Virus record (IMG/VR): IMGVR_UViG_3300039018_000297 | Coordinates: 1 to 20,573 of that record | Length of the DNA: 20,573 nucleotides | From: a virus | Strand: one strand, 5' to 3' | Part shown: positions 853-15,183 of the stretch, one piece after another | Layout of the letters: each line of letters starts with the position of its first letter | How positions within the stretch are numbered: position 1 is the first letter of the stretch | Notes under the pieces: model-generated | Database searches by the model: none | Told to the model about the DNA's origin: nothing | The model's input: only the letters and a program-made list of their open reading frames with translations | Program-made: the position numbers and the translations under genes

Positions 853-877
853 GAGTAGCAGAAGAGTGAGAACTTCT

Positions 878-2833: not shown

Positions 2834-2843
2834 GGAGCAAGCG

Positions 2844-5192
2844 ATGAGTGAGGATCGCATTAAGTTCGTAGACTATATAGTCGGTTTGGCCGCTGGGACA
2901 GTGGGTGAGACTGCTTTGTTAGTCCGTCAGAAGCCCACGCATGACAGCGACGGCAATCTGATATACCACGCAGACGGCGCGCCCAAGGCCACCTTCCCTG
3001 CGTTCATGCCAGAAAAGGCCCGCATCAAAGAAGGCGAGGCTTGGTATGTCAACACAGGATCGTTCGTCGTTGACCGCTTTGTAGACGGCAAGCCCGCTGC
3101 CAAGTCGAGCAACGTCGAGTTCGTGTTGTTCATGATGCTGGATGACATCGGCACAAAGTCTAAGACACCGCCGCTTGACCCGACATGGATACTGGAAACC
3201 AGCGAAGGTTCGTTCCAGTGGGGTTATGCGTTCAACGAACAGCCAAACAAGGGCGACTTCTGCGCGGCTATCAAAGCTATTGCAGATGCTGGCTACACTG
3301 ATCCGGGCGCGACTAACGCTGTCCGTAACTGCCGTATCCCCGGCAGCGTCAACATGAAGCGCGGGCGCGGCAGCTTCCCTGCGCGGCTGGTCGAGTTCCA
3401 CCCTGACCGCGAATACACTTTAGAGCAGATTTGCACTGCGCTAAACGTCACGCCAGAGGAAGGCGACACCGCAGAGTTTAAGGCTGTGCAGTTGCGCGAC
3501 AAGGGTTTGGACAACGTCCTGACATGGTTAAGCGAAAAGAGCCTAGTCCTTAGCGCGCCCAACACAGACGGCTGGTGTGCTATCGTCTGTCCCAACCATC
3601 AAGAACACAGCGATGGCATGATCGAGGCGCGCTACAAGCCGCTGGATCGTTCGTTCTGCTGCTATCATGGACACTGCCAAGACTTAGACAGCCGCACGTT
3701 CCTTGATTGGGTAGCCAATAACGGCGGCCCAAAGGTAACGCCGGGTTTGCGTGACGAACTAATCGCTGAACGTATGGCGTCCATGTATGACAAGATAGCG
3801 CCAACGCAAGCCTTTCCTGACGAAGCCGCAGCGCGCGTGCGTGAGGTCGAAAAGAAAGAAGCAGGCCGGCTGGAACAAAGCGAGTGGTTCGAGCGTTTCG
3901 CTTACATACAGTCTGATGACTGCTATTTCGACATGGTGACACGCCAAGAGATAGCCCGTAACGTCTTCAACGCCCTGTTCCGTCACGTCGACTGTCGCTC
4001 TATCCATAAGAAGACGCAGCGCGTGCAGTCATCCATCTATTTTGACGAGCGCCGCCAAGATCGCGGTGCGCCTGCGCTGGCAGCGGTGACGTTTGCCGCC
4101 GGCGATGACGTTCTGGTGACGCGCGACGGGTTGGTTTACGGCAATAGGTGGACAAACGCCCGCCCTGATGTAGCCCTTAGCGATACAATCGCGGATCATG
4201 ATGTCGAACTTTGGCTAGAGCATTGCCGCAATCTGGTCGTTGATGATGCAGAGTTGGATCACATCCTTGACGCTATGGCGTTCAAGATACAGAATCCAAA
4301 CATCAAGATAAACCATGCAATCCTTATCGGCGGCGATGAAGGCGCGGGCAAGGATAGTATGTTCCAGCCCTTCCTTTGGGCGCTTGGCGGTAAGCATTGG
4401 CGCAACAGATCAGTCATTGAGGCTGGCGGGTTGGATAGCCAATGGGGTTATTCGTTGGAAGCTGAAGTGGTCATCCTGAACGAGTTGAAGGAACCAGAGG
4501 CGCGCGAACGCCGGGCGATGGCTAACAAGCTAAAGCCGCTGATCGCTGCGCCACCTGAAACGCTGTCGGTTAATCGTAAGGGTATGCACCCCTATGAGTT
4601 GGTCAACCGCCTGATGGTGGTCGCCTACACGAACGATCCGCTGCCTATCACACTGCCAACACAGGATCGTCGCTGGTTTTGCGTCTGGACACGCGCGCCG
4701 CGCATGACAACAGCCGCAGCCAAAACGCTGTGGAACTGGTATGAGGCCGGCGGCTATGAGAAGTGCGCCGCTTGGCTGCACCAACGCGACGTTTCGGCGT
4801 TTAACCCTGCTGCTGCACCGCCAGTGACCGAATGGAAGCTAAACATGGTCGAGCATGGTATGAGCGTAGCAGAAAGCTATCTGGTAGACATGATGCGGCT
4901 TCGGTCGGGCGTGTTTTCTGATGGTGTCATCGGTGGGCCGTTCCATCGTATCTGCGATGCGCTGGCGGTTAACGTGCCAGCCGGCGTTAAAATCCCACAG
5001 GCTGCGTTGCTTCATGCGTTGAAGGAAGCGGGCTGGATCGACATAGGCCGCATTAACTCAAAAGAGTATCAAAACAAGAAACACATATTTGCTGCGCCCG
5101 AAGCGTTGGAAAAGCACAACAAGTCAGAGTTGCGCCGCATGGTGGAAGAATTGCCCAAGTCGGGCATCATGCCAAACATCGGTAGGAATTGA
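2844..5192 (+). CDS. Bifunctional primase and SF3-type helicase
   Basis: A 782-aa replication protein expected to lay primers and unwind the fork for the adjacent polymerase. The N-terminal part resembles archaeo-eukaryotic-type primases of the RepB_primase or PriCT kind: MLDDIG (about 98-103), then TSEGSFQWGY and RIPGSVNMK (164-172). A probable zinc-binding segment follows (about 244-280; C249, H252 and a CCYHGHC cluster). The helicase part has a Walker A GGDEGAGKDS (496-505), Walker B-like VVILNELKE (542-550), a sensor-like VVAYTNDP, and a likely arginine finger DRRW (608-611), matching the DUF5906/SF3 group. The ATG at 2844 is chosen over one at 2823 because AAGGAG lies six bases before it. 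The stop codon TGA is embedded in the -35 box of the next promoter. Confidence 0.93.
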   Translation: MSEDRIKFVDYIVGLAAGTVGETALLVRQKPTHDSDGNLIYHADGAPKATFPAFMPEKARIKEGEAWYVNTGSFVVDRFVDGKPAAKSSNVEFVLFMMLDDIGTKSKTPPLDPTWILETSEGSFQWGYAFNEQPNKGDFCAAIKAIADAGYTDPGATNAVRNCRIPGSVNMKRGRGSFPARLVEFHPDREYTLEQICTALNVTPEEGDTAEFKAVQLRDKGLDNVLTWLSEKSLVLSAPNTDGWCAIVCPNHQEHSDGMIEARYKPLDRSFCCYHGHCQDLDSRTFLDWVANNGGPKVTPGLRDELIAERMASMYDKIAPTQAFPDEAAARVREVEKKEAGRLEQSEWFERFAYIQSDDCYFDMVTRQEIARNVFNALFRHVDCRSIHKKTQRVQSSIYFDERRQDRGAPALAAVTFAAGDDVLVTRDGLVYGNRWTNARPDVALSDTIADHDVELWLEHCRNLVVDDAELDHILDAMAFKIQNPNIKINHAILIGGDEGAGKDSMFQPFLWALGGKHWRNRSVIEAGGLDSQWGYSLEAEVVILNELKEPEARERRAMANKLKPLIAAPPETLSVNRKGMHPYELVNRLMVVAYTNDPLPITLPTQDRRWFCVWTRAPRMTTAAAKTLWNWYEAGGYEKCAAWLHQRDVSAFNPAAAPPVTEWKLNMVEHGMSVAESYLVDMMRLRSGVFSDGVIGGPFHRICDALAVNVPAGVKIPQAALLHALKEAGWIDIGRINSKEYQNKKHIFAAPEALEKHNKSELRRMVEELPKSGIMPNIGRN

Positions 5193-5218
5193 CAAACATT
5201 TGGTTGCAATGATATACT
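5189..5218 (+). promoter_or_regulatory. Near-consensus sigma70 promoter with extended -10
   Basis: TTGACA (5189-5194, perfect -35) and TATACT (5213-5218, one mismatch) are separated by 18 bases, and TG at 5210-5211 forms an extended -10. The predicted start is around 5223-5226, in GGG. The -35 overlaps the primase stop codon and only ~60 bases separate the start from a terminator, so no protein is expressed from it. This is the best promoter I see in the window. Confidence 0.8.
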
Positions 5219-5222
5219 GATA

Positions 5223-5285
5223 GGGTCAGCAATGCTCCGTTGGCCCTTTTAAGCCCCCTGCGTCTCACTCCGCAGGGGGCTTTTT
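5223..5285 (+). ncRNA. Predicted ~60-nt small RNA, promoter to terminator
   Basis: From the predicted start, the transcript would fold at once into an 8-bp hairpin: GGGTCAGC (5223-5230) pairs with GTTGGCCC (5239-5246), using two G-U pairs, around the loop AATGCTCC. A short TTTTAA linker and the terminator hairpin follow. A hairpin flush with the 5' end plus an intrinsic terminator is the build of a stable small RNA. There is no start codon with a ribosome site inside. The terminator loop TCTCACTC is complementary to leader motifs of several phage genes (see findings). A role in regulating translation is inference; it could also simply be a promoter remnant feeding a terminator, or a short decoy RNA. 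Confidence 0.6.
5253..5285 (+). terminator. Rho-independent terminator of the replication module
   Basis: A perfect 10-bp stem, GCCCCCTGCG (5253-5262) and CGCAGGGGGC (5271-5280), encloses the 8-base loop TCTCACTC and is followed by TTTTT (5281-5285). It stops rightward transcription two bases before the stop codon of the convergent leftward operon. On the minus strand the hairpin is followed by TTAAAAGGG, which is not a good U-tract, so the signal is mainly one-directional. Confidence 0.93.
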
Positions 5286-5286
5286 A

Positions 5287-5466
5287 TTATTCCTCCCACA
5301 CTGCTTCTGCGTCTAGGATCAGTTCGCAGGGTGGGTAGCGCAGATTGCTGACTTCAATGTCGGTTATCAAACCCCTAAAGGCAAGATGCTCCAACAGGCG
5401 ATAGGCCAGCGTAGCTTCAGCGCGCTTGTCGTAGTCCTCAAAGGCTTCTGCTTCTTCATCGGTCAT
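5287..5466 (-). CDS. Small acidic phage protein (59 aa), last gene of the leftward operon
   Basis: Starts MTDEEAEAFEDYDKRAEATL and ends in AVWEE. It is rich in acidic residues and predicted mostly helical, with a hydrophobic middle (AYRLLEHLAFRGLI). The ATG at 5466 overlaps the TGA of the preceding gene (ATGA), indicating translational coupling; GGAAACCAGA lies upstream as a weak ribosome site. An alternative TTG start at 5478 is less likely. No family is recognised. Its stop lies two bases from the T-run of the convergent terminator. It may be one of the small early phage proteins that bind host targets, but nothing in the sequence proves it. Confidence 0.75.
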   Translation of the reverse strand: MTDEEAEAFEDYDKRAEATLAYRLLEHLAFRGLITDIEVSNLRYPPCELILDAEAVWEE

Positions 5467-5648
5467 TCTGGTTTCCAATCTTTAGGATAAGGGACTGACT
5501 TGTAACTGGTTCTGTAAAGTCTGCCGTTTTCGTCGTAATGCTCTGTCACTGTCGAGCCGTCATCATTCAGGACAACGGCAAGGTCGCCAAGCAGGTGCAA
5601 TGGTCGCCCGGTCTTGGGGTCGATGCGGTATTTTATTTTGTCGGTCAT
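5463..5648 (-). CDS. Small phage protein of unknown function (61 aa)
   Basis: Begins MTDKIKYRIDPKTGRPLHLL and contains LNDDGSTVTEHYDENGRLYRTSY, a beta-rich, repeat-like pattern with charged turns (DDGS, DENG). It is soluble, with no signal peptide or membrane segment. The ATG at 5648 has GGAG eight bases upstream and overlaps the previous stop as ATGA; the longer in-frame extension upstream lacks a ribosome site and overlaps the preceding gene, so it is rejected. No family is recognised. Confidence 0.78.
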   Translation of the reverse strand: MTDKIKYRIDPKTGRPLHLLGDLAVVLNDDGSTVTEHYDENGRLYRTSYKSVPYPKDWKPE

Positions 5649-5806
5649 CCGTCTTTCTCCGGTGTTAGGAATGCAGTCAACACTACTGCGTGAAGCGTTC
5701 CGTTTGGTTTGCGAAACTCTGTATATCCATCTGGCATATCTGTGCGGATACACCCTTTGAAGTCCCAGCCCTGCCGCTTACCGGCTAATCTATAAGTGGC
5801 TGTCAT
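5645..5806 (-). CDS. Small phage protein of unknown function (53 aa)
   Basis: A short gene reading MTATYRLAGKRQGWDFKGCI to TPEKDG. The ATG at 5806 has AGGA seven bases upstream inside the end of the preceding gene, and its TGA overlaps the next ATG (ATGA). This coupling on both sides, together with the lack of any other use for the interval, supports it as real despite its size. The composition suggests a compact beta-containing domain with a single cysteine. No known family is recognised. Confidence 0.72.
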   Translation of the reverse strand: MTATYRLAGKRQGWDFKGCIRTDMPDGYTEFRKPNGTLHAVVLTAFLTPEKDG

Positions 5807-5809
5807 TTG

Positions 5810-5995
5810 CTATCCTAATCTAGTGATGAATGTGACGCCGTTGATCGTGCGGCACTTGAACGACTTGCCGTTGCGTATGCCATATTGCGACACGTTGCGG
5901 CTTGTGCGCTTGGCATGGCCCTTTTCGGTGGCTGGCATACTGCCAACTTCGCCAACGGCCAGCGTTCCCATTGGGTAAAACATAGGGCGGCTCAT
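5810..5995 (-). CDS. Small basic phage protein (61 aa), possibly nucleic-acid binding
   Basis: Starts MSRPMFYPMGTLAVGEVGSM and ends KSFKCRTINGVTFITRLG. The second half is rich in Lys, Arg, Ser and Asn (GHAKRTSRNVSQYGIRNGK), a pattern common in short phage proteins that resemble winged or homeodomain-like DNA-binding domains. That reading is an inference from composition. The ATG at 5995 overlaps the TGA of the preceding gene (ATGA). The longer in-frame extension to 6019 lies inside that gene and is not needed. Confidence 0.75.
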   Translation of the reverse strand: MSRPMFYPMGTLAVGEVGSMPATEKGHAKRTSRNVSQYGIRNGKSFKCRTINGVTFITRLG

Positions 5996-6201
5996 GTAAT
6001 CAGCCCCCGCGCTACGCAAGCCTGTCGCAGATGCTCAGGACGGACACCCCATCGCTTATAGATATTGCCATAGTCGCGCCTAACGTCTGACAGGTGCGCT
6101 TCCTGCGCCCGTAGCGCAGCCTTTAGCTTGTCATGCTCTTTAAATGCGTCTGCTGCGCGTTGCAGCACTTCGGCTTGTTCGTCGGTGTATGTATTTATCA
6201 T
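5992..6201 (-). CDS. Small helical phage protein (69 aa)
   Basis: Reads MINTYTDEQAEVLQRAADAF, then a charged helical stretch (KEHDKLKAALRAQEAHLSDVRRD) and GVRPEHLRQACVARGLIT. The first half looks like a helical hairpin or coiled coil. The end, with RWGVRPEHLRQACVARG, resembles a recognition helix of a small DNA-binding domain, but this is only a resemblance. Start at ATG 6201, one base after the previous TGA, with GGAA upstream. The TGA overlaps the next start (ATGA). Confidence 0.77.
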   Translation of the reverse strand: MINTYTDEQAEVLQRAADAFKEHDKLKAALRAQEAHLSDVRRDYGNIYKRWGVRPEHLRQACVARGLIT

Positions 6202-7554: not shown

Positions 7555-7803
7555 TTATGCGCCTTCCACGTTAACGAATACATAGCCATCGCCTTTGACG
7601 TTGCCGCCTTGTGCAAATGTGCCTTGCCAGCCCATCTTGGCGATTAGGGCATCGGCAGCGGCCTTGTGGTTGCCGTCTGGATTTAGCTGGTAATCAAAAG
7701 GAACCATTATACTACCAGCGGCAGCGGTTGCCTTGATGCGTGAGCCTCTGGTGTTGGTTGGGCCCATATACTTTGTTTCGATTGCTTGTGTTATAAAAGT
7801 CAT
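7555..7803 (-). CDS. Conserved small phage protein (82 aa)
   Basis: The ATG at 7803 is set by a strong GGAGTGAGTGAG leader. The sequence (MTFITQAIETKYMGPTNTRG, SRIKATAAAGSIMVPFDYQL, HKAAADALIAKMGWQG) resembles a small protein that recurs in many phage genomes and plasmids with the pattern TKYxGPTNxRGSRIKA followed by a helix ending in KxGW. That similarity is from memory and no function is established for the group. It probably has a small beta domain with a helix packing at the C-terminus. A 7-bp hairpin lies between it and the upstream clamp-like gene. Confidence 0.82.
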   Translation of the reverse strand: MTFITQAIETKYMGPTNTRGSRIKATAAAGSIMVPFDYQLNPDGNHKAAADALIAKMGWQGTFAQGGNVKGDGYVFVNVEGA

Positions 7804-7841
7804 CTCACTCACTCCTATTATTGGCACTAGCGCCAGCCTCG

Positions 7842-7869: not shown

Positions 7870-8439
7870 TTAGGCGGCGACAGCGTCTTTCCATGCTGTA
7901 TCGGGCGCAGTGTGGCCTGTGCGTATTGGCATCAGGACAGCAAACGCGCTTGGATAGAGCGGAAAGGTAACACCGGCTGGTGACTGTCCGTTATGGTGCA
8001 AATGCGCTTCTAGTGAACTCTTGCCACCTAGCAGCTTGCCGATCTTGCCCATGTCAGCGACATAGGCGGGATTAAATTGCGCGACTTCGCCCGATAGGTC
8101 GCCGGTCGGAATAACGCGACGCCAATCGGGGAATGTGCCGTCTACCGGCTGGCAGGCAATGTCGCCGCACTGCGTAGGTGTCACTGTCAGGCTGTCGAAC
8201 TTATTGCCGGTCACTGCGCGCTTGATGACATCGATAGGGATAATCCACCCTTTAAATTCGGGAAGCTCACTAACGTCGATCTTGCCACAGAATAGCCGGT
8301 GTCCGTCAGTCGATACGACATATCCTAGTGGATCCACATAGACGCCATTCAGATAATAGCGGACTTTCTCCGTTGACGCGCAGACAAGCGCAGCGCGCAA
8401 TAGATCGGTAGGGATGGTTATGATTGTTTCGGTAGTCAT
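7870..8439 (-). CDS. Shortened DNA polymerase III beta-type sliding clamp protein
   Basis: This 189-aa protein aligns by eye with domain 2 and part of domain 3 of bacterial DnaN. The clearest matches are VRYYLNGVYVD (26-36; E. coli VRYYLNGMLFE), STDGHRL (43-49; ATDGHRL), FPDWRRVIP (103-111; FPDYRRVLP), FNPAYV (122-127; FNVSYV) and the end VLMPIR (168-173; VVMPMR). Domain 1 is missing and domain 3 is shortened, so it is about half the usual 366 aa. It could form a ring from three or more two-domain units, or act as a decoy that binds clamp-interacting proteins of the host. It sits in the leftward operon, apart from the polymerase it might serve. Start ATG 8439 with AAAGGA upstream. Confidence 0.9.
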   Translation of the reverse strand: MTTETIITIPTDLLRAALVCASTEKVRYYLNGVYVDPLGYVVSTDGHRLFCGKIDVSELPEFKGWIIPIDVIKRAVTGNKFDSLTVTPTQCGDIACQPVDGTFPDWRRVIPTGDLSGEVAQFNPAYVADMGKIGKLLGGKSSLEAHLHHNGQSPAGVTFPLYPSAFAVLMPIRTGHTAPDTAWKDAVAA

Positions 8440-8494: not shown

Positions 8495-8689
8495 TTATGC
8501 TTCTACAATCCGCGAGGCTTTAAACAGCTTGGCGGGCATGAATTGCTTGGCTTTATCCAGCGCAGCTTGAGCCGCTTCGACGCTGTCGAACCGATCACCT
8601 TCGCGCCCGCTAAAGCGCCAGATCGTGCGATACAATTCGATAGGTTCGCCGATCAGATTTACGTTCACTACTTTATAGGTCTTAGTCAT
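8495..8689 (-). CDS. Small phage protein (64 aa), unknown
   Basis: Starts MTKTYKVVNVNLIGEPIELY at an ATG preceded by CGGAGTGAGAACC, the leader that best matches the terminator loop of the predicted small RNA. The N-terminal half looks like a beta hairpin (YKVVNVN, YRTIWRFSG), followed by a helix DSVEAAQAALDKAKQF and a basic end KLFKASRIVEA. The fold could be a small alpha/beta domain. The long in-frame extension to 8902 overlaps the previous gene and is not credible. No family is recognised. Confidence 0.78.
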   Translation of the reverse strand: MTKTYKVVNVNLIGEPIELYRTIWRFSGREGDRFDSVEAAQAALDKAKQFMPAKLFKASRIVEA

Positions 8690-8713
8690 GGTTCTCACTC
8701 CGTTTGAAAAGGT

Positions 8714-8745: not shown

Positions 8746-8967
8746 TTACCATTCGCCGCCAGCGGCGCGGACTTCGTCGCGGCGCTCTGCCAGCGGCGCA
8801 AGTGCTTCGCGGACATTGGCGATTGCTTGCGCGATCGTTTCTGCGCCGTCGAGACATTCGAGAATGTCGCCGTCTGACCAGCACTCTACAACATAGTCCC
8901 AACCATCGGACTCATAGGTTTGCAGCGCGTGATTGCGGACGGCATTTATAAGGTCTTGTTCGTTCAT
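8746..8967 (-). CDS. Small acidic phage protein (73 aa)
   Basis: Begins MNEQDLINAVRNHALQTYES and continues through WDYVVECWSDGDILECLDGA and AIANVREALAPLAERRDEVR, ending AAGGEW. It is acidic and likely helical, with two cysteines. The ATG at 8967 is chosen over a GTG at 8976 because GGAG of the repeated leader lies eight bases before it. The pattern YVVECWSDGDI resembles small proteins often seen in phage early regions, but I cannot name a family. Confidence 0.8.
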   Translation of the reverse strand: MNEQDLINAVRNHALQTYESDGWDYVVECWSDGDILECLDGAETIAQAIANVREALAPLAERRDEVRAAGGEW

Positions 8968-8970
8968 GTT

Positions 8971-8991
8971 ACTCACTCCTTCACTGATTGA
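8971..8991 (-). repeat. Repeated 21-nt gene leader, copy 2
   Basis: Identical over 21 bases to 9193-9213. Here it makes up almost the whole gap between the RMF-like gene and the 73-aa gene and contains AAGGAGTGAGT, the Shine-Dalgarno site. The two first genes of the operon thus have the same ribosome-binding leader. Confidence 0.9.
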
Positions 8992-9189
8992 TTAATACTG
9001 ATCTGCGCTCTGCGCCCATTGAACCTGACGCATCGCGTCAGACCAGCCAAGATGCCAGCGGTTCCAGCGGCTGTCGATTGAGCGGTCACTGCTAGAGCTA
9101 TAAGGACAATCGACGCTGCGGTCGCCGCGCCCAAATGCGCTGTAGCCATCGTGGTACTCTACATTGTCGGTTCTGGTGTATTCGGTCAT
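8992..9189 (-). CDS. RMF/CrpP-like ribosome modulation factor family protein
   Basis: A 65-aa protein with the pattern of ribosome modulation factor: GYSAFGRG (15-22), CPY (28-30) and WHLGWSDA (45-52), matching RMF's GYxAxxxG...CPY...WxxGWxxA. RMF of E. coli binds the 30S subunit near the anti-Shine-Dalgarno region and drives 100S dimer formation. Relatives occur on plasmids and phages (CrpP group, linked to fluoroquinolone phosphorylation in some reports). Binding to host ribosomes is inferred from the motif. The ATG at 9189 is fixed by the repeated AAGGAGTGAGTG leader; an in-frame extension to 9423 lacks a ribosome site. As first gene of the leftward operon it should be among the earliest proteins made. 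Confidence 0.82.
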   Translation of the reverse strand: MTEYTRTDNVEYHDGYSAFGRGDRSVDCPYSSSSDRSIDSRWNRWHLGWSDAMRQVQWAQSADQY

Positions 9190-9192
9190 TTC

Positions 9193-9213
9193 ACTCACTC
9201 CTTCACTGATTGA
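9193..9213 (-). repeat. Repeated 21-nt gene leader, copy 1
   Basis: Leader of the RMF-like gene, identical to 8971-8991. It contains AAGGAGTGAGT and starts about where transcription would begin if the promoter at 9220-9247 is used. Confidence 0.9.
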
Positions 9214-12948: not shown

Positions 12949-15183
12949 ATGGCTGATCCGACAGGTATTAACAAAGTAGGCGACGTAGCTGACATCGGTA
13001 GCGATCCAGCAAACACGCGTGGCGACCCTGATGTAATGGCAACTATGCGCCATCGTATGCAGATGGGTATGGCGGCGCTGTCGGACAGCCGTGAAGATGA
13101 ACTAGACGATCTACGGTTTATGGCCGGCAGCCCTGACAACCAGTGGCAGTGGCCAGCCGACGTGTTGGCGACCCGCGGCGCGGTGCAAGGCCAGACAATC
13201 AACGCACGACCATGCCTCACAATCAACAAACTGCCGCAGCACGTCCGTCAGGTCACGAACGAGCAGCGTCAGAACCGCCCAGCCGGTAAAGTTATACCCG
13301 TCGATGACAATGCTGACATTGAAGTGGCAGCGATCTTTGACGGCGTTGTGCGGCACATCGAATATATGTCCGACGCTGACGTTGCTTACGACACAGCCTG
13401 CGACAACCAAGTTACATATGGTGAAGGTTACATTCGTCTAATTACAGAGTATTGTAACGAAGAAACCTTCGACCAAGACGTTCGCATTATGCGCGTCCGC
13501 AACTCGTTTAGCGTTTACATGGACCCAACGATCCAAGACCCATGCGGTTCTGACGCTGAATGGTGCTTTGTCACGCAAGACATGACAAAAGACGAGTATG
13601 AGCGCGAATTTCCAGATGCGTCGCCCATTTCGTCGATTATGTCCACCGCTGTGGGCGATGAAAGCCTGTCCGCATGGCTTGACGAAGACACTGTCCGCAT
13701 CGCGGAGTATTTTTACTACAAACGCAAGCGTGAAACGCTAAATTTGTACCCCGATAACGTATCTGCGTTCAAAAATACCGACATGGATAAGCAACTGCGC
13801 GCCATGTACGGCAAACCTGTCCGCACACGCGAAGTAGACCGCAAAAAAGTCATGTGGATGAAGACCAATGGCTATGATGTGCTTGATGAGCGCGAGTGGC
13901 CGGGCAGTTGGATACCTGTCGTGCGCGTTGTAGGCAACGAATTTGAAGTGCAAGGTCAGATTTACGTATCTGGTCTGGTGCGGAACGCCAAAGACGCACA
14001 GCGGATGTACAACTACTGGACCAGCCAAGAGGCAGAAATGCTTGCGCTGGCGCCAAAAGCACCATTTATTGCATATGGCGGCCAGTTTGAAGGTTACGAA
14101 AACCAGTGGAAGACTGCCAACACGACCAACTGGCCGTATTTGGAAGTCAACCCAGACGTTACAGACGGCGCTGGGAACGTATTGCCGCTTCCGCAGCGTG
14201 CAGCACCCCCGCTGCCGCAAACAGGGCTGATACAGGCTAAAATGGGCGCTGGTGAGGACATCAAGTCCACCACCGGCCAGTATGACGCATCTTTGGGCGC
14301 GCAAGGCAACGAACGGTCTGCAAAAGCCATCACCGCACGCGAAAAGCAGGGCGATGTTGGCACATACCACTATGTAGATAACTTAGCCCGTGCGATCCGT
14401 CACATTACCCGCCAGCTTGTCGATATTATCCCTAAGATTTACGACACACAGCGCATTGCACGCATCATCGGCGTTGATGGGGAAGTCAGCATGGTCAAAA
14501 TGGATCCAATGCAGCAAGAGCCTGTCAAGGAAATTCGTGACCAAAATGGCGGTCTGATTGAAAAAATCTACAACCCGTCAATCGGCACATACGACGTTAT
14601 GGTCACTACTGGCCCCGGCTACATGACCAAGCGTCAAGAGGCACTCGACGCCATGTCGATGATTCTGCAATCCAACCCGCAGCTTTGGACTGTGGCCGGC
14701 GATCTGTTCATCAAGAACATGGATTGGCCCGGAGCGCAGGAAATGGCGAAACGGTTTAAGAAAATCCTTGACCCGAAAGTCTTGGAAGAAGGCGATCAAT
14801 CGCCTGAAATCATGGCTGCCAAGCAACAGATCGAAGCCTTGTCGCAAGAACTCAACCGTGTCTCTGACATCATGGAGAACATCCAAGACAGCGCGGAACA
14901 GCAGAAAATCTCCATCGACAAGTACAAGGCTGAAGTGCAGGCTTACGAAGCTGAAACCAAGCGCATCTCTGCGGTACAAAACAGCATGACACCTGAACAA
15001 ATTCAGGATATTGTCATGGGTACGATTGCAGGCGCACTGGATACAGGCGACTTGATCGGCGGTTCACCTGAAATGCGCGAAGTACCGCAGATGGACGAAC
15101 AGATGCAGCAAGCCCCTGAAATGGGTGAGCAGCCTGAGATGCCAATGGAAATGCCCGAACAAGCCCCTGAAGGAATGATGTAA
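12949..15183 (+). CDS. P22-like portal protein
   Basis: A 744-aa protein forming the dodecameric ring at the capsid vertex through which DNA passes. The N-terminal region RQVTNEQRQNRP, the YGEGYIRLITEY segment and the YDASLGAQGNERSAKAITAR region match P22-type portals. A long helical stretch at about 625-680 (QQIEALSQELNRVSDIMENI and following) fits the barrel or coiled coil, and the last ~40 residues are rich in Met, Glu, Pro and Gln. Size agrees with P22 gp1 (about 725). The stop overlaps the next ATG (TAATG). This call sets the phage as podovirus-like. Confidence 0.92.
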   Translation: MADPTGINKVGDVADIGSDPANTRGDPDVMATMRHRMQMGMAALSDSREDELDDLRFMAGSPDNQWQWPADVLATRGAVQGQTINARPCLTINKLPQHVRQVTNEQRQNRPAGKVIPVDDNADIEVAAIFDGVVRHIEYMSDADVAYDTACDNQVTYGEGYIRLITEYCNEETFDQDVRIMRVRNSFSVYMDPTIQDPCGSDAEWCFVTQDMTKDEYEREFPDASPISSIMSTAVGDESLSAWLDEDTVRIAEYFYYKRKRETLNLYPDNVSAFKNTDMDKQLRAMYGKPVRTREVDRKKVMWMKTNGYDVLDEREWPGSWIPVVRVVGNEFEVQGQIYVSGLVRNAKDAQRMYNYWTSQEAEMLALAPKAPFIAYGGQFEGYENQWKTANTTNWPYLEVNPDVTDGAGNVLPLPQRAAPPLPQTGLIQAKMGAGEDIKSTTGQYDASLGAQGNERSAKAITAREKQGDVGTYHYVDNLARAIRHITRQLVDIIPKIYDTQRIARIIGVDGEVSMVKMDPMQQEPVKEIRDQNGGLIEKIYNPSIGTYDVMVTTGPGYMTKRQEALDAMSMILQSNPQLWTVAGDLFIKNMDWPGAQEMAKRFKKILDPKVLEEGDQSPEIMAAKQQIEALSQELNRVSDIMENIQDSAEQQKISIDKYKAEVQAYEAETKRISAVQNSMTPEQIQDIVMGTIAGALDTGDLIGGSPEMREVPQMDEQMQQAPEMGEQPEMPMEMPEQAPEGMM

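Follow-up and report, generated by a model that had tools for sequence, protein, structure and literature searches.

A predicted phage small RNA behind the primase gene, with two loops complementary to ribosome-binding sites in the same genome

Comparable regulatory RNAs

Most described phage small RNAs have one phage gene or host genes as their targets. Lambda OOP and P22 sar are encoded opposite their target and share long complementarity with a single gene. Both are very short (77 nt for OOP, 68/69 nt for sar), and sar blocks initiation of ant translation (PMC12197685). Other regulatory RNAs encoded by phages include VpdS (phage VP882) and PreS (phage lambda), both reported to be Hfq bound; PreS targets the host dnaN, and VpdS affects the levels of phage and host mRNAs (PMC12197685). 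Among bacterial RNAs, LhrC of Listeria monocytogenes carries CU-rich motifs in hairpin and terminator loops that block the Shine-Dalgarno (SD) sequence (PMC4132741), and AbcR of alphaproteobacteria selects its many mRNAs by conserved motifs that are short and exposed, one within the first hairpin (CUCCCA) and one between the hairpins (GUUCCC) (PMC5461406).

The window, i.e., the whole stretch of DNA analysed (20,573 nt, IMG/VR record IMGVR_UViG_3300039018_000297), encodes a similarly short predicted RNA. As in LhrC, both loops contain a CUCC-type motif, which is GCUCC in the first and CUCACUCC in the second. This likeness would concern the mechanism only and implies no homology: LhrC is bacterial, multicopy, and stress induced, also uses a single-stranded stretch, and has no phage context or co-varying regulon. 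Unlike sar and OOP, the present RNA is encoded apart from its predicted targets, which are many and complementary over 7 to 10 nt; the sites that match its loops lie ~2.4 to 4.4 kb from the element. The short exposed motifs are shared with AbcR, which differs in its bacterial origin, its regulation of transport genes, and its sequence and structure. In contrast to VpdS and PreS, the present RNA is predicted to target the phage itself, at many of its ribosome-binding sites (RBSs).

The element would act like the CU-rich anti-SD small RNAs and is a member of no family tested. The sequence-only reading had assigned the element to no named family, which holds at the Rfam gathering thresholds, and no member family was found at relaxed thresholds either. 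The best weak matches were to the alphaproteobacterial ar14 (RF02344; 27 bits, gathering threshold 58.8) and the Burkholderia ncS54 (RF02871; 25.4 bits, gathering threshold 43). The cis-antisense arrangement of OOP and sar is not seen, as positions 5223-5286 fall between the primase stop and the leftward ORF that ends at 5287. A blastn search of phage records returned nothing matching the element region. A pattern scan of IMG/VR for the two loops gave mixed contexts among the matches listed and was set aside as evidence.

Promoter and predicted small-RNA gene

The predicted gene sits between the primase stop codon and the end (5287) of the first leftward ORF. Its features are as follows.

5189..5218, + strand: sigma-70-type promoter, -35 TTGACA and extended -10, with a fixed 18-nt spacing in 51 distinct relatives
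5189-5194, + strand: -35 TTGACA, overlapping the primase stop TGA at 5190-5192
5210-5218, + strand: extended -10 TGATATACT, with TG at 5210-5211 and TATACT at 5213-5218
5223..5286, + strand: predicted small RNA of ~60-64 nt, from fold, conservation, covariation, and strand test
5223..5246, + strand: hairpin 1, 8 bp with an 8-nt loop
5231-5238, + strand: loop 1, AAUGCUCC, with the core UGCUCC (complement GGAGCA)
5251..5282, + strand: hairpin 2, an intrinsic terminator of 12 bp followed by a U-rich tail
5263-5270, + strand: terminator loop (loop 2), UCUCACUC
5264-5271, + strand: octamer CUCACUCC in the terminator loop, the complement of GGAGUGAG

The promoter matches 11 of 12 consensus positions with its 18-nt spacer and is the top-scoring site within positions 4500-6000; the predicted RNA would start at 5223-5226. 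Folding of 5223-5286 gives -38.1 kcal/mol (z score of -6.6), and none of 200 shuffled sequences is as stable. The promoter, 5' hairpin, and terminator that the sequence-only reading had placed at 5189-5285, without a protein, are all located there, as is the overlap of the promoter with the primase stop codon, and no ORF of at least 50 aa lies on the + strand of this interval. The extended -10 it had described is present as well, with the correction that relatives conserve TGnTATA, which is nearly invariant, and leave the last two positions free.

Conservation in relatives and sister clades

A search of IMG/VR with the primase yielded 80 loci. The close relatives of the window form clade A (~75 contigs, mostly with 84-94% primase identity), in which the element has the general build of a trans-encoded small-RNA gene, a short noncoding unit with its own promoter and an intrinsic terminator. 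Promoter, hairpin 1, and terminator are found together, directly behind the primase stop, in 75 of the 76 clade-A contigs examined; in the single exception (L156), the end of the contig cuts the primase gene short. Among 51 distinct clade-A elements, the -35 is TTGACA in 50 and TTGACG in one, TGnTA is constant, and the spacer measures 18 nt in every case despite 31 different spacer sequences. A covariation check, proposed along with the sequence-only reading, comes out in its favor: the hairpins are conserved with compensating changes. In an alignment of 30 RNAs, 99.7% of the pair cells hold standard pairs, 10 of 23 pairs show changes on both sides, and the observed pairing and covariation values are matched by 0 of 500 shuffles. 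The terminator loop segment CTCACTCC is invariant in 30/30 RNAs, although the terminator stem varies, and the octamer CUCACUCC is unchanged throughout clade A.

The condition set to refute the sequence-only reading, a terminator retained while promoter and 5' hairpin are lost, does not hold in clade A, the closest clade. Clade B (~72% primase identity) has the terminator only, with the loop UGCCUCACUG, and no promoter was found. Clade C combines a CCUCACU terminator with a hairpin 1 whose loop is mostly UUUGCUCC, and a search upstream of this hairpin found no recognizable promoter. Members of clade D, whose primases are mostly ~55% identical to that of MW202483.1 (itself 52% identical to the window's), mostly have ordinary terminators behind the primase gene. 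The lone terminator of clade B and the ordinary ones of the more distant clade D would suit the view that the element does no more than terminate the replication operon, its promoter-like sequence and first hairpin being incidental. That view is very unlikely, given the fixed spacing over so many spacer sequences, the compensatory changes in hairpin 1, and the match of the invariant loops to RBSs.

A covariance model search of 50 sources found no second copy of the element: apart from weak strand-mirror or marginal matches, it hit only the site behind the primase gene. In some relatives (L101, L110, L123, L130, L135, and similar contigs), hairpin 1 is extended by an insertion, and the resulting long arm contains another segment resembling GCUUUGCU; loop 1 ends in CUCU in most of these contigs.

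Ribosome-binding sites of the leftward arm

The complement of the terminator loop octamer recurs in the window at the RBSs of four leftward genes.

9194..9201, - strand: target RBS GGAGUGAG, gene with ATG at 9189
8972..8979, - strand: target RBS GGAGUGAG, gene with ATG at 8967
8694..8701, - strand: target RBS GGAGUGAG, gene with ATG at 8689; predicted 10-bp duplex of -18.7 kcal/mol
7808..7815, - strand: target RBS GGAGUGAG, gene with ATG at 7803

Under an order-1 model of the arm, 0.035 such sites are expected, and the predicted duplexes range from -14.6 to -18.7 kcal/mol. In the 4-kb flanks of the relatives and the window itself, GGAGTGAG occurs 89 times on the minus strand downstream of the element, immediately before ATG in the cases displayed, and not once on the other strand or in the upstream arm. 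With 10-kb flanks, GGAGUGAG is the most frequent octamer before clade-A leftward start codons (73 distinct contexts). The actual octamer ranks first among 168 letter permutations of the loop-2 complement (mean, 0.93); this value, like the other permutation and Fisher values given here, was computed on related contigs without correction for phylogeny. GGAGUGAG precedes no rightward start of the same genomes and no minus-strand start in clade B, C, or D. Distinct clade-A occurrences of the loop-2 complement comprise 77 before ATG, 34 that are the RNA element itself, and 2 elsewhere. The proteins encoded downstream of these RBSs fall into 35 unrelated clusters, the best guard against the relatedness of the contigs. 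From their small size and arrangement, we infer that the leftward genes are early genes.

Loop 1 corresponds to RBSs as well. The commonest leftward RBS octamer of clade C is GGAGCAAA, the complement of its loop-1 sequence UUUGCUCC (32 contexts, best of 280 permutations). In clade A, GGAGCA[A/G] RBSs are found in 43 of 51 contigs whose loop 1 ends in CUCC and in 4 of 17 with a loop ending in CUCU (Fisher test, 9e-6, on related contigs and uncorrected for phylogeny); the match is of 6 to 7 nt, as the 8-nt partner of the clade-A loop, GGAGCATT, has no occurrence. The element has the general hallmark of base-pairing small RNAs, conserved exposed segments that are complementary to distant initiation regions and co-vary with them. 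The correspondence is not uniform: 17 of 75 clade-A contigs have no GGAGTGAG RBS within the stretch covered, and some clade-C members retain CUCACUCC, yet GGAGTGAG is found in no clade-C RBS. Minimum-energy cofolding of the RNA with its targets, a method that excludes loop-loop pairing, gives almost no net gain, and the predicted accessibility of the target sites is mixed.

On the minus strand, the terminator loop itself becomes GGAGUGAG, and its stem can form from both strands. A protein acting as a translational repressor might accordingly bind GGAGUGAG in mRNA, with the 3' end of the leftward transcript serving as a hairpin decoy and the + strand RNA being irrelevant. Hairpin 1 speaks against this, as it pairs only when the + strand is read (238 of 240 pair cells versus 169 of 240 on the - strand; 70 G-U versus 1 A-C), and so do the promoter on the + strand and the U-tract that follows the + strand hairpin. 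Such a decoy is highly improbable, and the strand preference of hairpin 1 points to the + strand as that of the functional RNA.

Two products of this arm have partial assignments. The small protein at 8992-9189 (-), whose RBS is one of the GGAGUGAG sites, weakly matches ribosome modulation factor (20.2 bits to PF04957, which has a cutoff of 27.9). The product of 7870-8439 (-) matches PHROG 3007 (RusA-like resolvase) and, more weakly, the DNA polymerase sliding clamp (PHROG 947; PF02767 below the cutoff); the two library names disagree.

Primase, DNA polymerase, and other rightward starts

Complementarity to the two loops is also found at the starts of the replication genes.

2841..2858, + strand: primase start hairpin GCGAU-GAGUGAGG-AUCGC, ATG at 2844, loop at 2846-2853
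2834..2841, + strand: primase SD GGAGCAAG, fitting the loop-1 core UGCUCC
864..870, + strand: DNA polymerase RBS GAGUGAG, ATG at 878, complementary to loop 2

The primase start GCG-ATGAGTGAGGATCGC, i.e., the 15 nt from the ATG with the preceding GCG, is invariant at the nucleotide level in all 74 distinct sequences from clades A, B, and C, which were collected with a pattern that required the peptide start and allowed synonymous codons. Later primase codons vary synonymously, and AGT is rare in the gene (2 of 36 serines). The stem of the start hairpin has a pair probability of ~0.99, and its loop GAGUGAGG is complementary over 8 nt to the CCUCACUC of the terminator loop. For the window, where that loop reads UCUCACUC, the match comprises 7 Watson-Crick pairs and one G-U. 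This frozen start is present in all three clades with a CCUCACU loop and absent in clade D, which has no such loop.

Most of clade A has the primase SD GGAGCAAG, and GAGUGAG is the DNA polymerase RBS in most clade-A members. In part of clade B, the latter is replaced by AGUGAGGCA, which matches the clade-B loop UGCCUCACU. A third rightward gene, located upstream (MQHSKIVGGST...), has the RBS AGUGAGGU in clades A and C (e.g., L087:6177 and L178:5915, +), which matches CCUCACU over 7 nt.

GGAG/CUCC is common to all SD sites and anti-SD loops, and GGAGUGA differs little from the SD consensus GGAGGUGA. The RNA could thus be real while GGAGUGAG and GGAGCAA are simply sites preferred by the ribosome, their likeness to the loops a coincidence and the true target a host mRNA or a protein. 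This seems unlikely: in the same genomes, none of the 116 rightward RBSs with GGAG carries TGAG, against 71 of 326 on the leftward side (Fisher test, 6e-11), the preferred octamer shifts along with the loop from clade A to clade C, and the primase start hairpin is complementary though it lies outside the SD.

The position directly after the DNA polymerase and primase genes, and the fact that lambda OOP was once considered a primer (PMC12197685), would fit an origin RNA that primes or activates DNA replication. The strong terminator that ends the predicted RNA and the lack of a clear GC-skew switch exactly at the element make this extremely improbable, and it would leave the co-variation of loops and RBSs unexplained.

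Proposed function

The element is most likely a phage-encoded base-pairing small RNA that represses early and replication genes at the level of translation, with a probability of roughly 0.84 judged from sequence comparison. That it acts in trans, as the sequence-only reading proposed, has strong comparative support, because its loops are complementary to, and co-vary with, many RBSs elsewhere in the phage. This correspondence between loops and target sites is the main finding here; the earlier reading had the gene, not its targets. Promoter, hairpins, invariant loops, complementary sites, and co-variation are features of the genomes themselves; the following model adds that the RNA would be made and would pair in the cell, that its effect would be repression, and when this would occur.

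In clade A, the RNA would be transcribed from its own sigma-70 promoter and also by readthrough from the replication operon; in members with no promoter found, the 3' end of the replication mRNA would supply it, as an RNA derived from the 3' untranslated region. It would fold into two hairpins. Loop 2 (CUCACUCC) would pair with the GGAGUGAG SD sites of the leftward arm and with the DNA polymerase RBS, and would form a kissing loop with the primase start hairpin, while loop 1, which reads UGCUCC in most clade-A members and UUUGCUCC in clade C, would pair with GGAGCA(A/G) SD sites, including that of the primase. Pairing over an SD or a start codon blocks 30S binding, with LhrC (PMC4132741) and P22 sar (PMC12197685) as examples. 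The same block here would most likely repress early and replication proteins, resulting in replication feedback and early-gene shutoff.

A more specific reading, offered tentatively at a little less than even odds, is an RNA "address code." Genes that join the leftward arm would carry one of two SD barcodes, GGAGUGAG or GGAGCAA, for which a single RNA would provide the two reading loops, with kissing-loop feedback on the primase, and loops and barcodes would change together between clades. As part of this reading, and with the same reserve, an RNA derived from the 3' untranslated region would be ancestral and would have gained its own promoter in clade A.

Through RBS barcodes, one short RNA appears to address a whole phage regulon. 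The barcodes cover 35 or more unrelated small proteins, whose functions are largely unknown, and the RNA also appears to feed back on primase and DNA polymerase. The model of posttranscriptional turn-off of phage early genes is testable, offers a handle on which uncharacterized genes share regulation, and describes a predicted natural multitarget translational repressor with defined pairing sites.

Host leads

A search of genome collections gave one match, in an uncultured lake bin. The final T that a -10 normally keeps is not fixed in clade A (TATACT, TATATG, TATACG, TATAGG); this may be a clue to the polymerase of the host. The gene at 12949-15180 (+) encodes a P22-like portal protein that is ~70% identical to those of OR003940.1 (Gammaproteobacteria phage) and MW202483.1 (Manatee Spring) and ~41% identical to that of Rhodoferax phage P26218; these similarities are a possible lead to the host group.
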